A stretch of 64,000 nt of DNA. It comes from Sulfurimonas autotrophica DSM 16294. GTDB lineage: Bacteria > Campylobacterota > Campylobacteria > Campylobacterales > Sulfurimonadaceae. Below, piece after piece: positions 47,761 to 52,760 of the stretch. The stretch lies in assembly GCF_000147355.1 (NCBI RefSeq), contig NC_014506.1, positions 1-64,000 of the forward strand, in the 5' to 3' direction. A model generated the notes under the pieces. It was not told the origin of the DNA, did not search any database, and saw only the letters and a list, made by a program, of their open reading frames with translations. The position numbers and the translations under genes are program-made. Position 1 is the first letter of the stretch. Each line of letters opens with the position of its first letter.

Positions 47761-48696
47761 ATGAAAATAGTGCTTTTGGATGCCATAACATTTGGCAATA
47801 CGGATTTAAGTTGCTTTAATGAATTTGGAGAAGTTGAGGTTTTTGATTCAACAGAAGCATCGCTTACTAACGTAAGAGTAAAAGAAGCAGAGGTTATAGT
47901 AACAAACAAAGTTGTTATAACGCGTGAACATATGCAAAATGCAAAGAAACTTAAACTCATTTGTGTGGCGGCAACGGGAACAAATAATGTGGACCTCAAA
48001 GCTGCAAAAGAGTTGGGCATCGCTGTGAAAAATGTAGCCGGGTATTCAACTGATTCGGTCATTCAACATACATTTTCAATGCTGTTTTATCTTATAGGGC
48101 ATTCGCGTTATTATGATGAAGTGGTTAAAAACGGTGAGTATTCAAAAAGCGGCATTTTTACCGATGTCAGTCATCCTTTTTTTGAAATAAAGGGTAAAAA
48201 ATGGGGTATCATCGGTCTGGGTGAAATAGGCAGAGGCGTTGCAAACATAGCTAAATGTTTCGGCGCAGAGGTCTGCTACTACTCTACAAGCGGAGTAAAC
48301 CGTACAGAGGATTTTCAAAGAATGAATCTTGATGAGCTTTTAAAAAGCTGCGATATTATAAGCATTCATGCACCTCTCAATGACAAAACCAAGAATCTTT
48401 TAGACTATGAACAGTTGTTAATATGTAAAGAGGGCGCAGTTGTGTTAAATCTTGGACGCGGCGGCATCATTAATGAAGCAGCAGTTGCCAAGGTTGTAGA
48501 TGAAAAAAATATTTTCTTTGGTCTGGATGTATTTGAAAAAGAGCCGCTACCATTAGAAGGCCCACTGTTACATGTAAAGAACAAAAGTAGACTCTATATG
48601 ACACCACACATAGCATGGACATCTGTCGAAGCAAGAGACAAACTCATCGCCGGTGTATGTGAAAATATAAAAAGCAGTTTGACGGAAAACAAATGA
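47761..48696 (+). CDS. D-2-hydroxyacid dehydrogenase
   Basis: 311 residues. NAD-binding WGIIGLGEIGRGVA (GxGxxG) lies at about 147-160, and the catalytic Arg (NLGRGG), Glu (LDVFEKEP) and His (TPHIAW) follow in order. It interconverts a 2-keto and a D-2-hydroxyacid, such as lactate, glycerate or hydroxyglutarate. The last four bases overlap the start of the flavoprotein gene (ATGA), so the two are translationally coupled; the pair may oxidise an organic acid and pass electrons on. One palindrome copy lies at 48568-48577. Confidence 0.9.
   Translation: MKIVLLDAITFGNTDLSCFNEFGEVEVFDSTEASLTNVRVKEAEVIVTNKVVITREHMQNAKKLKLICVAATGTNNVDLKAAKELGIAVKNVAGYSTDSVIQHTFSMLFYLIGHSRYYDEVVKNGEYSKSGIFTDVSHPFFEIKGKKWGIIGLGEIGRGVANIAKCFGAEVCYYSTSGVNRTEDFQRMNLDELLKSCDIISIHAPLNDKTKNLLDYEQLLICKEGAVVLNLGRGGIINEAAVAKVVDEKNIFFGLDVFEKEPLPLEGPLLHVKNKSRLYMTPHIAWTSVEARDKLIAGVCENIKSSLTENK
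48568..48577. repeat. TTACATGTAA palindrome
   Basis: A 10-bp copy in the hydroxyacid dehydrogenase gene, coding LHVK. Confidence 0.55.
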
Positions 48697-50216
48697 AAAC
48701 AGATGTATTAATCATAGGCTCAGGCGGGGCAGGACTTACCGCGGCACTTGCTGCAAAAGATGCAGGCGCAGATGTGCGGGTCATCACAAAAGAGTACCCG
48801 ACACGAAGCCAGACCTGTATGGCACAAGGTGGAATGAACGCAGCTTTAGGCAATGTAAGCCATGACTCTATAGAAGATCATATTCAAAACACGCTTAAAT
48901 CCGCACATGGTGAAGCAGACGAAGAGGCAGTACGTTACATGTGCAGCGAAGCACCGAATGCCGTTGCTTGGCTTGATGAAATCGGTGTCTGCTTTTCTCG
49001 TACACCGGAGGGGAAAATTGCTCAAAGAAGACTCGGCGGAGCATCGGCCCCACGAGCTTGCTATGCACAGGATTATACAGGGCTGAAAATTTTACATACA
49101 CTCTATGAGAGATGTTTGAAAAAAGATGTTGAGATGTTCAGTGAGCGTTATCTAGTTGATTTGCTGACAAAAGAAGACGGCAGCATTTGCGGTGCTTTGA
49201 TACTCAACATGAGAAGCGGCGAACTTGAACACCATTTTGCCAAGTGTGTTGTACTGGCATCGGGCGGCTATTCCCGTATTTATGATAAATATTCTACGAA
49301 CTCTACGGCTTCAACAGGCGATGGCATTGCTGCAGCTTCAAGAGCAGGGGCAAAGCTTCTTGGTATGGAGTTTGTACAGTTTCATCCTACAGGACTCAAA
49401 AATTCTTCTATACTTATCAGCGAGAGTGCCAGAGGAGAGGGCGGGTATCTGCTAAATTCCAAGGGAGAGCGTTTTACGAATGAGCTTGCACCCCGAGATG
49501 AAGTCAGCCGTGCTATAAATGAGCAGATTGTAGCAGGAGAAGAAGTCTTTTTGGATATTCGCCATTTGGGAGAGAGGTTTATAGATGAAAATCTGCCTCA
49601 AGAGAGAAAGTTGGCACTGTTGTATGAAAATGTTGACCCGGTGAAAGATTTAATACCTATAAAAGCTGTTGCACACTACACAATGGGCGGTATAGAGGTT
49701 GATAACAAATCACAAACAAGTGTGAGCGGTTTGTTTGCCTGTGGTGAGTGCGCAAATCATAAAGTCCACGGAGCCAACCGTTTAGGGGGCAACTCTTTGC
49801 TGGAGATTATTGTTTTTGGACGTGAGGCGGGGAAAAGCGCTGCAAATTTTGTATTTTGTGATGAGAAATGCCAAAATGATTTTGATTTTAAAAAGGAAAA
49901 AAGTTTTTTAGATGCACTCATAGAGTATAAAAATGAGATTGATTTTTATCAAAAACGTACTGAATTAGGCGAGCTATTTTATAAAAAAGTTGGAATCATA
50001 AGAAAAGAGAGCCAACTTCAAGAAGCAAAGCAAGAGATAGAATTGCTAAAAAAACAATTGCCTTTGATGGGCGTCAAAGATACTTCAAAAGTTTATAATA
50101 CCAACCTTATGGAATTTATAGAGTTTAGAAATATGCTTGATATATGCGAGAGAGTAGTTTCGAGTGCATTGGCAAGAAAAAAGAGCTGCGGCGCTCATTT
50201 TGTGGTAGAGGAATAG
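48693..50216 (+). CDS. Fumarate reductase/succinate dehydrogenase-like flavoprotein
   Basis: 507 residues, shorter than classical FrdA/SdhA. FAD-binding IIGSGGAGLTAALAA at the N-terminus, then TCMAQGGMNAAL, EFVQFHPTGL, ESARGEGGYLLN with the catalytic Arg zone, AVAHYTMGGI and VHGANRLGGNSLLEI. All core catalytic regions are conserved, so a dicarboxylate oxidoreductase is likely. It is coupled to a hydroxyacid dehydrogenase upstream and to an iron-sulfur subunit downstream, but no membrane-anchor gene lies nearby. It could be a soluble or peripherally attached enzyme. Confidence 0.85.
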   Translation: MKTDVLIIGSGGAGLTAALAAKDAGADVRVITKEYPTRSQTCMAQGGMNAALGNVSHDSIEDHIQNTLKSAHGEADEEAVRYMCSEAPNAVAWLDEIGVCFSRTPEGKIAQRRLGGASAPRACYAQDYTGLKILHTLYERCLKKDVEMFSERYLVDLLTKEDGSICGALILNMRSGELEHHFAKCVVLASGGYSRIYDKYSTNSTASTGDGIAAASRAGAKLLGMEFVQFHPTGLKNSSILISESARGEGGYLLNSKGERFTNELAPRDEVSRAINEQIVAGEEVFLDIRHLGERFIDENLPQERKLALLYENVDPVKDLIPIKAVAHYTMGGIEVDNKSQTSVSGLFACGECANHKVHGANRLGGNSLLEIIVFGREAGKSAANFVFCDEKCQNDFDFKKEKSFLDALIEYKNEIDFYQKRTELGELFYKKVGIIRKESQLQEAKQEIELLKKQLPLMGVKDTSKVYNTNLMEFIEFRNMLDICERVVSSALARKKSCGAHFVVEE

Positions 50217-50221
50217 GGATA

Positions 50222-50929
50222 ATGAAAGTACATGTAAAAAGAGAATCAGATTTTGTAGCGTATGATGTCGAGTTGCCCGATGCCACTTTGCTTGAAGTTT
50301 TAAGCTCTATAAAAACCGAACAAGACAATTCATTGGCTTTTAGCAGCGGATGTCGAAGCTCTGTGTGCGGGAGCTGCTCTATGCGGGTCAATGAAAAAGA
50401 GGTCCTTGCCTGTGCCTATAAAGTGCAGGATGGCGATGTAATAGAGCCGCTTAAAAATATCGAAGTGATACGGGACTTGGTTGTCAATATGGATAAAGCT
50501 CTAGAGACGAAAAAGCGTGCAAAAACATGGCTGCAAACATATAACAAAGAAGCAAAACTTACCCATGAAGATGAAAAAATAAATGCGTTGCAGAGTGACT
50601 GTATCTTATGCGGTTCATGTTATTCTGCCTGCCCTGTTTATGCTGTAAATGAAGAGTTTTTAGGACCATTTGCTCTTACGGGTGTTTGGAAATATGTGAG
50701 TGATAAACGTGAAGCGCAACCAAAAGAAAAGATAGACACCATTCAGACAAACGGTGTGTGGGATTGCACTTTGTGCAACGAGTGTACTTTAGTCTGTCCT
50801 CAAGGTATATCATCAAAAGCAGACATAGAAAAACTTCGTATGAAGTCAACAATGGCAGGATACGCAGACCCAAGTTTCACGCAAAGCTTCGATGGCGGTT
50901 TTGGATTTGACGGGAGTCCTAGCTTTTAA
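50222..50929 (+). CDS. FrdB/SdhB-like iron-sulfur subunit with extra Cys
   Basis: 235 residues from the ATG at 50222; the longer frame overlaps the flavoprotein gene. The 2Fe-2S site is SGCRSSVCGSCSMRV plus a later Cys; the first 4Fe-4S is CILCGSCYSACP; the third reads CTLCNECTLVCP. In classical subunits the second Cys of that last motif is replaced, giving 3Fe-4S; here all four cysteines are present, so a second 4Fe-4S is expected, as in E-type SQR or MfrB. Follows the flavoprotein by 5 bases. Confidence 0.88.
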   Translation: MKVHVKRESDFVAYDVELPDATLLEVLSSIKTEQDNSLAFSSGCRSSVCGSCSMRVNEKEVLACAYKVQDGDVIEPLKNIEVIRDLVVNMDKALETKKRAKTWLQTYNKEAKLTHEDEKINALQSDCILCGSCYSACPVYAVNEEFLGPFALTGVWKYVSDKREAQPKEKIDTIQTNGVWDCTLCNECTLVCPQGISSKADIEKLRMKSTMAGYADPSFTQSFDGGFGFDGSPSF

Positions 50930-50934
50930 GCACG

Positions 50935-52650
50935 CTATCTGACATTAACTCTTTTTATCGGTGGTTTGTAGTGGGGGTCTTTTCCTGCTACTGTCCATAG
51001 CTCTTTTGCCAGAGCGCTCACTGTTTTTTTAAAATCATCTTCTACAAGTGCAACGTCTGCAAAACTCTCAAAAAGCAGTTTTTCTTCTTCTTTACATGTA
51101 AGGGCATTGTCTTGTTTTGGAAGTGTTAGCGATGTTTTGTTCTTAAGATTGTAAAGATGCCAGAGACTTAAAAAATCTTCAGAGTATTTGTTTAAAATAT
51201 GATGTGCGTACAACTGAAAATTTTTACATTTGCTTTTTTCAAAAAGCCCTACAATGAGTGTTATTGTCTCTTTTAAGTGCACAAAAGGCACCATGGAAAA
51301 GAGCTGTCTTGCCACACTCTCTCCGCTGTCATGCTCTGCACCTATAAAAACTCTCGCACCACCGTCTGTGTCTCCGAAGTTATTTGTTTTGAGCCCTATA
51401 AGCCCTATATCTGTATGACGGTGGCGTCCGCATCCTTTTGCACAGCCTGAAAACCCGACCTTTATTTTATGTTTATAGATTTTTTCTAAGGGCAGATACT
51501 CGGCACTCTCATCTTTAATGCTCCAAACAGCGTAAGGGCAAAGGTTTCCAGCACATGCAACAATAGTTGAGCTCAGAACCGGTGAGGCAAAAGGAGCCAC
51601 TTTTTCATCTATACCGATAATGTATATATTTTGGTCAATACCCAAACGAACTTCGGCATTGTGTTTGTTAGCATAGTCACTGATTTTGCGTATCTCTTTT
51701 GGCGAGAGACGTGCAAAATCTGTTTGATAGCAAAAGGCGTATTTATTATTATTTAAAACTTCAAACTCATTAAACTCACCATGTAAGAGCTGTAGTTCGC
51801 CGGCACGGTTAAATTTTTTGCCATATACATCCTCCATAAGCTCTTTGAGTTTGTCCAAACCAAGTTCTTCTATCATATAAAAAAGTCTGGTTTTTGAGCG
51901 TGAAAATCGTGAGCCATGCGTATAAAAAGTTTCAACAAAGGCTGTAAAAAAATCAAATACTTCTTCATAAAGTAAAAATATGTCCGCGTCTTGCGCTATT
52001 TCGGTGTTTTTTCCGCCCATATAGACATTGAAACCATAAATATTATTTTTTTTGGCCAATGCAAAGTAGATGTCATTTGCAAAAAATGAATTGACATTGG
52101 CGGAGTTTCCGGAGATGCCGATACTGACACGGCGAGGCAGCATACCGACATATTTCGGATTTTTTATAATGTAGTTTTGCATCTGCTCTATAAGCGAGTA
52201 GACTTCGATTTTTGCATATTGATTCACACCATCATATACATCGGTTACGATATTTCTGATATTATCGCCAAAGCTCTGCCAGGTAATGAGCTCGTTGTCG
52301 TTTAAAAGTTTAAAAAGCTCATGTACATCATCAGCCTGGACATCATGCAGTTGAAAGCCTGCACGCGCAGTTACAACAAGGGTTAAATCATATTCATTTA
52401 CTATGTCTGCGAGAAAATTAAACTGTTTTGTACTGATTCTACCACCGGCAACACGGACACGGATGGTAAATTCATCTTCCAAAAAATCGGTATTAAAAAT
52501 ACCGAAATCCTGCAGATAATACCTATCGCCTTCACCCAGACTTTCAAAATCAATAGTATCAAACTCTTTGATAAAATAATCATACGGTTTAAGTCTGGCT
52601 TTGTAGCGTTCGCGTTTATTGAATTTTTTTTCCAAATCGTTTTCTTGCAT
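50935..52650 (-). CDS. Siroheme nitrite/sulfite reductase-family protein
   Basis: 571 residues from the ATG at 52650; the frame upstream to 52689 lacks support. Two ferredoxin-like halves and the siroheme/4Fe-4S site are visible: CAGNLCPYAV for the first Cys pair and GFSGCAKGCGRH for the second (C-x3-C). The first pair is C-x4-C, one residue shorter than the usual C-x5-C. It may be an assimilatory sulfite or nitrite reductase. It converges on the FrdB-like gene with only 5 bases between. Confidence 0.82.
   Translation of the reverse strand: MQENDLEKKFNKRERYKARLKPYDYFIKEFDTIDFESLGEGDRYYLQDFGIFNTDFLEDEFTIRVRVAGGRISTKQFNFLADIVNEYDLTLVVTARAGFQLHDVQADDVHELFKLLNDNELITWQSFGDNIRNIVTDVYDGVNQYAKIEVYSLIEQMQNYIIKNPKYVGMLPRRVSIGISGNSANVNSFFANDIYFALAKKNNIYGFNVYMGGKNTEIAQDADIFLLYEEVFDFFTAFVETFYTHGSRFSRSKTRLFYMIEELGLDKLKELMEDVYGKKFNRAGELQLLHGEFNEFEVLNNNKYAFCYQTDFARLSPKEIRKISDYANKHNAEVRLGIDQNIYIIGIDEKVAPFASPVLSSTIVACAGNLCPYAVWSIKDESAEYLPLEKIYKHKIKVGFSGCAKGCGRHRHTDIGLIGLKTNNFGDTDGGARVFIGAEHDSGESVARQLFSMVPFVHLKETITLIVGLFEKSKCKNFQLYAHHILNKYSEDFLSLWHLYNLKNKTSLTLPKQDNALTCKEEEKLLFESFADVALVEDDFKKTVSALAKELWTVAGKDPHYKPPIKRVNVR
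51092..51101. repeat. TTACATGTAA palindrome
   Basis: A 10-bp copy inside the siroheme reductase gene, coding LTCK on the minus strand. Confidence 0.55.
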
Positions 52651-52760
52651 AAAAATACCTACATGTAAAAATAGTGTAGATAATAGCAATTTTTTCTTTA
52701 TATATTGATGATATGTATCAAGTTTTTATTTAGTGTTTTTTACTAACAAACAAACTATGT

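Follow-up and report, generated by a model that had tools for sequence, protein, structure and literature searches.

A two-subunit fumarate reductase-like gene pair with no adjacent membrane anchor in Sulfurimonas autotrophica, with a probable role in the reductive TCA cycle

The window analyzed here, a 64,000-nucleotide stretch of the genome of Sulfurimonas autotrophica DSM 16294 (NC_014506.1, positions 1 to 64,000), carries an frdAB-like gene pair on its forward strand. The flavoprotein gene, frdA (48693–50216), encodes a 507-residue FrdA/SdhA-like protein, identified from its open reading frame, domain matches, tree position and structural model. Its stop codon is separated by 5 bases from the start of frdB (50222–50929), which encodes a 235-residue FrdB-like iron-sulphur subunit, identified from its open reading frame, domain matches and AlphaFold model; if an in-frame ATG further upstream, at 50144, were used as the start, the product would have 261 residues. 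On the other side, a gene for a D-2-hydroxyacid dehydrogenase (47761–48696, forward strand; open reading frame with a PRK08410 domain match) overlaps the start of frdA by 4 bases and is perhaps co-transcribed with the pair. The first-pass annotation had taken this dehydrogenase for the partner of the iron-sulphur subunit; directly upstream of the iron-sulphur gene, however, lies the FrdA-like flavoprotein, which is the partner instead. The convergent neighbor on the reverse strand (50935–52689) is NirA/sulphite-reductase-like, with two NIR_SIR stretches, and stays below cut-off with each of the nine NCBIfam models listed for it. A NirA-like gene adjoins the pair in several close relatives too.

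The iron-sulphur subunit matches the Pfam domains Fer2_3 and Fer4_8 and scores well over the cut-off of TIGR00384 (dhsB; 189.5 bits vs 88). Its AlphaFold model has a mean pLDDT of 90.2, with values below 50 for residues 226–234, and a search of the PDB with this model returned E. coli FrdB (1kf6_B) as the top match, with a TM score of 0.82. Residues C44, C49, C52 and C64 (50351–50413), which we take to be the [2Fe-2S] ligands, are invariant across the 37 rows of alignment A1. The second cluster motif, CILCGSCYSACP (50600–50635), was placed by the same alignment. The third cluster motif, CTLCNECTLVCP (50765–50800), matches CTFVGYCSEVCP of E. coli FrdB column for column. In the gap-free alignment of the surrounding segment, NGVWDCTLCNECTLVCPQ, with ngvwsCTFVGYCSEVCPk of 1kf6_B, an extra Cys stands opposite a Val, presumably V207 of the E. 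coli protein. In E. coli FrdB, this Val decides between a [3Fe-4S] and a [4Fe-4S] cluster, and conversion between the two in E. coli fumarate reductase was reportedly the subject of work by Manodori et al. in 1992 (cited in PMC10238741). Both C-x2-C-x2-C-x3-C-P motifs are present in all 69 window-type FrdB rows, of which 60 are distinct and two are the window itself. The first-pass annotation had claimed that four cysteines occupy the 3Fe-4S position, as in E-type and Mfr enzymes. That reading is borne out: the motif aligns with the 3Fe-4S site, the Cys that replaces the E. coli Val is kept in every row, and the E-type SdhB of the same genome likewise has four cysteines there.

The C-terminus follows a different pattern from that of E-type subunits. 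A short tail rich in Gly, Phe and Asp (50867–50926), recognized from alignment and model, replaces the E-type extension; it is alike across Sulfurimonas relatives, and model confidence at its end is poor. Past the last CP we counted 34–47 residues in window-type FrdB (69 rows) and 24–43 in classical FrdB/SdhB (13 rows), compared with 101–144 in E-type SdhB encoded beside a CCG gene (20 rows, 16 distinct, five of the 20 being the gene of this same genome). In a tree of 41 FrdB rows, the window type forms a clade of 24 with support of 100/99; 12 of the 38 inner forks of this tree have support below 80, and the placement of two long rows, L191 and L187, is unsure. (Here and below, L denotes relative loci, G genomes and f families.)

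The flavoprotein matches FAD_binding_2 (357 bits) and Succ_DH_flav_C (77 bits), falls just under the TIGR01812 cut-off (561.3 vs 567.3), and gives an AlphaFold model with a pLDDT of 89.7. By alignment, the codon at 48810–48812 specifies Gln40 at the position of the His that carries covalent FAD in E. coli FrdA; the FAD motif reads RSQT, compared with RSHT in E. coli. The residues H231, T233, E244, R247, R268, H328 and R363, which we take to form the dicarboxylate site, are all kept, and position 243 is Ser where E. coli has Thr. As a match of sequence, these residues do not prove that fumarate is the substrate. Neither subunit contains a long hydrophobic stretch or a Tat-like motif; FrdA starts with MKTDVLIIGSGG and has no RR in its first 45 residues.

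We then placed the flavoprotein in a tree of 56 rows chosen from the fetched loci. It falls within a Campylobacterota clade of 26 rows (support 99/98) that has 22 Gln, 3 Asn, 1 Ala and no His at the flavinylation position. With midpoint rooting, the neighboring clade of 15 rows, which includes SdhA and FrdA of E. coli, the SdhA of this genome, Vibrio/Aeromonas FrdA, Eremiobacterota SdhA and a MfrA, has His in 13. The comparison with SdhAB, MfrAB and TfrAB that the first-pass annotation had called for was achieved in part: each subunit forms a clade of its own, that of FrdA standing apart from SdhA/MfrA, in trees that leave out TfrAB and the Hydrogenobacter proteins.

Among the window open reading frames of at least 80 residues, read by eye, none beside the iron-sulphur gene encodes a CCG protein or a membrane anchor. 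We also searched 30 relative loci flanked by 1.5 kb or more of sequence to either side. BLAST of open reading frames of at least 100 residues found no SdhE- or GlcF-like gene at any of them (0/30), so the earlier statement that no SdhE/MfrE or anchor gene adjoins the pair stands for the window and, as regards SdhE/GlcF-like genes, for its relatives. A loose CCG letter pattern picked out two small open reading frames in those 30 loci, one antisense (L042) and one of 110 residues with no Pfam match (L070). No gene for an electron donor was recognized next to the pair in the open reading frame maps of the window and of the relative loci that were read.

The hydroxyacid dehydrogenase gene is a less constant neighbor. 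Among the 34 relative loci that reach 2.5 kb or further upstream, 16 have it no more than 1.5 kb upstream, and in 13 of those 16 a gap of 334–508 bp separates it from frdA. Because it is absent within 1.5 kb upstream in the other 18, we set it aside as a candidate subunit. Where the gap was read, it often holds an open reading frame of about 65–136 residues. In many Sulfurimonas relatives (e.g. L042–L062), one of about 80–136 residues that appears hydrophobic by eye stands between the dehydrogenase gene and frdA; the window leaves no room for one. The sole gap open reading frame searched (L079:5502-5909) had no Pfam match, nor did a different open reading frame, of 149 residues, in L189.

The genome of S. 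autotrophica consists of one contig of 2,153,198 bases, and CCG-domain matches occur in two of its genes. One lies inside a complete sdhABE operon and encodes a 293-residue SdhE-like protein, which matches the CCG domain with 86 bits but does not reach the equivalog cut-offs for Mfr or Hdr. The SdhB of this operon has 326 residues and a four-Cys third cluster, CVKCFECAEACP, and its SdhA keeps the flavinylation His (RSHS). The first-pass annotation had suggested that an anchor gene elsewhere might make the pair an ordinary complex; a CCG anchor does exist, but within sdhABE, and it does not make the pair ordinary, because the FrdB C-terminus is short and the FrdA belongs to a separate, His-less clade. 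The pair in the window thus makes up a second set, one with no anchor, beside sdhABE with its own SdhE. The other CCG gene (C1:1539269-1540549, reverse strand; L006:5267-6550) encodes a 427-residue Fer4+CCG protein, labelled GlcF-like, that reaches no NCBIfam cut-off and has TfrB among its best models. The two halves of TfrB are matched by different proteins, both below the cut-off of 385: the CCG half (positions 243–487) by the C-terminal part of this protein, with 171.7 bits, and the rest (positions 1–222) by the window FrdB, with 164.5 bits. The 427-residue protein is present in 258 of 298 genomes of the phylum, including families that lack the pair; its presence does not track the pair, so that it is no more than a possible specific partner. 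L-Aspartate oxidase, NadB, is encoded by a separate gene (TIGR00551, 465.2 vs a cut-off of 452.75).

To follow the distribution of the pair, we used the window FrdB as query and called the window type at 187 bits or more, the next score being 148.6. It is present in 50 of 60 genomes of the genus and 70 of the 298 phylum genomes sampled. ATP-citrate lyase (PF16114, 259–295 bits) is present in 75 of the 298, a count that leaves out five genomes with 23–27 bits; three of these (G262, G295 and G309) pass the PF16114 cut-off of 26.8, and two of the three have the pair. Pair and lyase occur together in 61 genomes, the pair alone in 9, the lyase alone in 14 and neither in 214 (Fisher p 9e-40, relatedness ignored). 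By family, both are found in f1 (25 genomes), f4 (18), f8 (8), f11 (4), f7 (3), f9 (2) and f13 (1), the pair without lyase in f7 (7), f4 (1) and f10 (1), and the lyase without the pair in f5 (7), f10 (5), f1 (1) and f12 (1). The link is largely a family-level trait.

Eleven of the 14 lyase-only genomes have another His-less FrdA clade instead, and one or the other flavoprotein type is present in 72 of the 75 lyase genomes, with neither in G040, G143 and G162. This second clade (8 rows in the tree) has Asn at the flavinylation position. Scoring the best five candidates per genome and taking matches above 600 bits, we found it in 12 of the 298 genomes. None of these 12 belongs to the 70 that carry the pair, and 11, all but G294, have the lyase. 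The gene has mdh and the two lyase genes as neighbors in G284, G166 and G290, and malate dehydrogenase in G251; in G118 and the two f5 loci read (L183, L186) it is not beside mdh or lyase genes. Such stand-alone His-less frdA genes lie at L178:8121-9695, L179:8762-10369 and L180:6109-7674 next to mdh and two ATP-citrate lyase genes, and at L181:7076-8689 next to mdh. No FrdB is encoded beside the second clade in the loci read.

Further FrdA- and FrdB-like genes were noticed in the relative loci. A third FrdA-like clade (KSNS/KTNS motif, 547–566 residues; L091, L101, L102, L104, L105 and L191:5962-7659) has no window-type FrdB beside it; matches of 41–45% and like length elsewhere, some in genomes with a window-type pair, may belong to it judging by sequence. 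Locus L191 also contains a reduced SdhB/SdhE-like pair (L191:1337-2866; weak Fer2_3 plus DUF5644, and an HdrB-like C-terminal domain), in whose first protein no Fer4-type Cys motif was found. In an f5 member of the same order (L184:5939-11039), a RIO-domain open reading frame and a second FrdB-like protein, of 238 residues, come after an SdhABE set. An SdhABE-like set from Peregrinibacteria (L095:1248-4448) reads RSQTCM, with no flavinylation His, and in its third cluster motif, CAHCEKSSENCP, the third Cys is replaced by Ser.

By its domains, with a FAD_binding_2 and Succ_DH_flav_C flavoprotein adjoining a Fer2_3 and Fer4 iron-sulphur subunit, and by its FrdB fold, the window pair is a member of the complex II superfamily. 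Its two subunits probably form an anchor-less fumarate reductase of the cytoplasm that works one way, from a soluble donor, as part of the reductive TCA (rTCA) cycle. The retained dicarboxylate residues, the lost His and the co-occurrence with ATP-citrate lyase speak for this; the nine genomes that have the pair and no lyase, and the three that have the lyase and neither flavoprotein type, speak against it. Since neither an anchor nor a CCG subunit adjoins the pair and FrdB has no docking extension, the electrons should come from a soluble source. A soluble low-potential donor would deliver them to the third cluster of FrdB, the most likely candidate being reduced ferredoxin and the next NAD(P)H acting through an unlinked oxidoreductase; ferredoxin is our first guess because two steps of the rTCA cycle already use it. 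With four cysteines, the third cluster would be expected to be [4Fe-4S] and not [3Fe-4S], and electrons would pass on through the other [4Fe-4S] and the [2Fe-2S] cluster to a non-covalent FAD in FrdA, where fumarate would be reduced to succinate. Three clusters, two of them [4Fe-4S], would be predicted by analogy with MfrABE. In the absence of the flavinylation His, the enzyme should be essentially one-way.

The precedents for this reading come from one study. There, Wolinella MfrABE, with Ala in place of the His and non-covalent FAD, reduced fumarate and did not oxidize succinate, E. coli and yeast mutants of the flavinylation His lost succinate oxidation, and the E-type Cys pattern was read as a second [4Fe-4S] cluster (PMC2680327). 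The same study reports that mutations near the flavinylation site of the B. subtilis enzyme led to loss of flavin and activity, and that MfrA A86H regained covalent FAD yet still did not oxidize succinate (PMC2680327). It follows from the A86H result that the mode of FAD binding does not alone set direction, and the missing His points to a direction but does not prove it. Against a soluble enzyme, according to a review, fumarate reduction in the Campylobacterota cycle falls to menaquinone-linked FrdABC (PMC6682613), and another source names quinones for Aquifex (PMC3917532). A bolder extension is possible but tentative: that the enzymes of the soluble Campylobacterota clade, each with a non-covalently bound FAD and two [4Fe-4S] clusters, take electrons directly from ferredoxin, and that in some families a stand-alone His-less FrdA with no iron-sulphur subunit, encoded in some genomes next to mdh-aclAB, does the same job. 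If this were true, fumarate reduction in the rTCA cycle would bypass the quinone pool.

Could the pair instead dock on a CCG protein encoded elsewhere, either the SdhE of sdhABE or the 427-residue Fer4+CCG protein, and so be quinone- or thiol-linked? The genome does offer an SdhE-like protein, the third cluster has four cysteines as in E-type enzymes, and the 427-residue protein (171.7 bits) and the window FrdB (164.5 bits) match complementary halves of TfrB, both below 385. We nevertheless consider docking unlikely: window-type FrdB lacks the C-terminal extension seen in the 16 distinct E-type rows, an SdhE/GlcF-like gene is missing at 30 of the 30 relative loci with enough flank, the FrdA clade stands apart from the SdhA of the same genome, and the 427-residue protein, being in 258 of 298 genomes, does not follow the pair. 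That the two subunits form a TfrAB-type thiol:fumarate reductase, oxidizing thiols, is highly improbable, since both are far under the cut-offs (TfrB 164.5 vs 385, TfrA 405.1 vs 718) and no CCG half exists in the protein or beside it, even though, for the iron-sulphur subunit, TfrB ranks third among the NCBIfam models.

A different substrate has also to be weighed. The pair could use an unsaturated dicarboxylate other than fumarate, or serve a step tied to the neighboring 2-hydroxyacid dehydrogenase, whose gene overlaps frdA by 4 bases and lies upstream in 16 of 34 loci; in nine genomes, moreover, the pair occurs with no ATP-citrate lyase. The other 18 loci, however, lack the dehydrogenase gene in the 1.5 kb upstream, the dicarboxylate residues match those of FrdA/SdhA, and the pair co-occurs with the lyase; such a role seems to us distinctly unlikely.

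That anchor-less pairs exist, and roughly what they do, is already known. The 2008 study by Sievert et al. is said to be one of S. denitrificans. As cited in PMC4674564, which describes a two-subunit copy beside a three-subunit copy, Sievert et al. 2008 proposed that the two-subunit enzyme is cytoplasmic and acts in the rTCA cycle. According to PMC2628731, S. denitrificans has two complexes that, unlike those of Nautilia, do not both have an anchor. Fumarate reductase is named among the rTCA enzymes, with no detail, in the portions available of PMC10066037 and PMC5441870; fumarate figures only as a growth substrate in those of PMC4584964; and term look-ups gave no occurrence of the enzyme names in the text available for PMC7952632 or PMC6908604. 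In the accessible parts of the open-licence literature on such pairs, we found no mention of the missing His, the four-Cys site or the missing extension, and none of the complementary stand-alone clade or its place beside mdh-aclAB. The matter has consequences for metabolism: whether quinol, NADH or ferredoxin supplies the fumarate step sets the energy cost of CO2 fixation in vent Campylobacterota. A probably soluble enzyme encoded by just two genes lends itself to expression in E. coli, which makes the question testable.

Finally, we compared the window pair with known systems. NadB was rejected, since the window FrdA scores 395.1 against the TIGR00551 cut-off of 452.75 and the NadB of this genome lies apart in the tree. 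The classical QFR/SQR types A–D were rejected as well: the pair has no anchor gene beside it, no flavinylation His, and a Cys in the third cluster. It resembles E. coli FrdABCD in the FrdB fold (TM 0.82) and the active-site residues, and differs from it in that the E. coli enzyme has Val in place of the extra Cys, the covalent-FAD His and membrane anchors. With E-type SdhABE, including that of its own genome, it shares the four-Cys third cluster, but it lacks the CCG subunit in the operon and the long SdhB C-terminus, as well as the His of RSHS; His-to-Gln together with four cysteines is the signature that tells the pair from the organism's SdhABE. MfrABE of Wolinella and Campylobacter likewise combines a four-Cys third cluster with the lack of a flavinylation His (Ala in Mfr), yet differs by its Tat signal, CCG subunit and long SdhB. 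Assignment to MfrABE was rejected on scores of 419.2 of 1100 and 139 of 600 for NF042982 and NF042952 and on the lack of a Tat signal; the positive control, L187 of the same order, passes both equivalogs, a control that serves Mfr and not Tfr. By analogy, the chemistry of the window enzyme should be most like that of MfrAB, but in a soluble, cytoplasmic protein. TfrAB was rejected on its scores (TfrA 405.1 vs 718, TfrB 164.5 vs 385) and on the lack of a fused CCG half, which TfrB carries and the window FrdB does not. The methanogen TfrAB and the Hydrogenobacter enzyme are similar, by description, as soluble fumarate reductases off the quinone pool; an NADH-dependent soluble fumarate reductase of Hydrogenobacter was reportedly described by Miura et al. 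in 2008. The closest parallels in gene content are the Zeitz epsilonproteobacterium and, likened by description, S. denitrificans, where the published accounts place an anchor-less FrdA and FrdB beside a separate three-subunit complex. The locus of the Zeitz record (Sulfurovum sp. enrichment clone C5, L083) carries a window-type pair.
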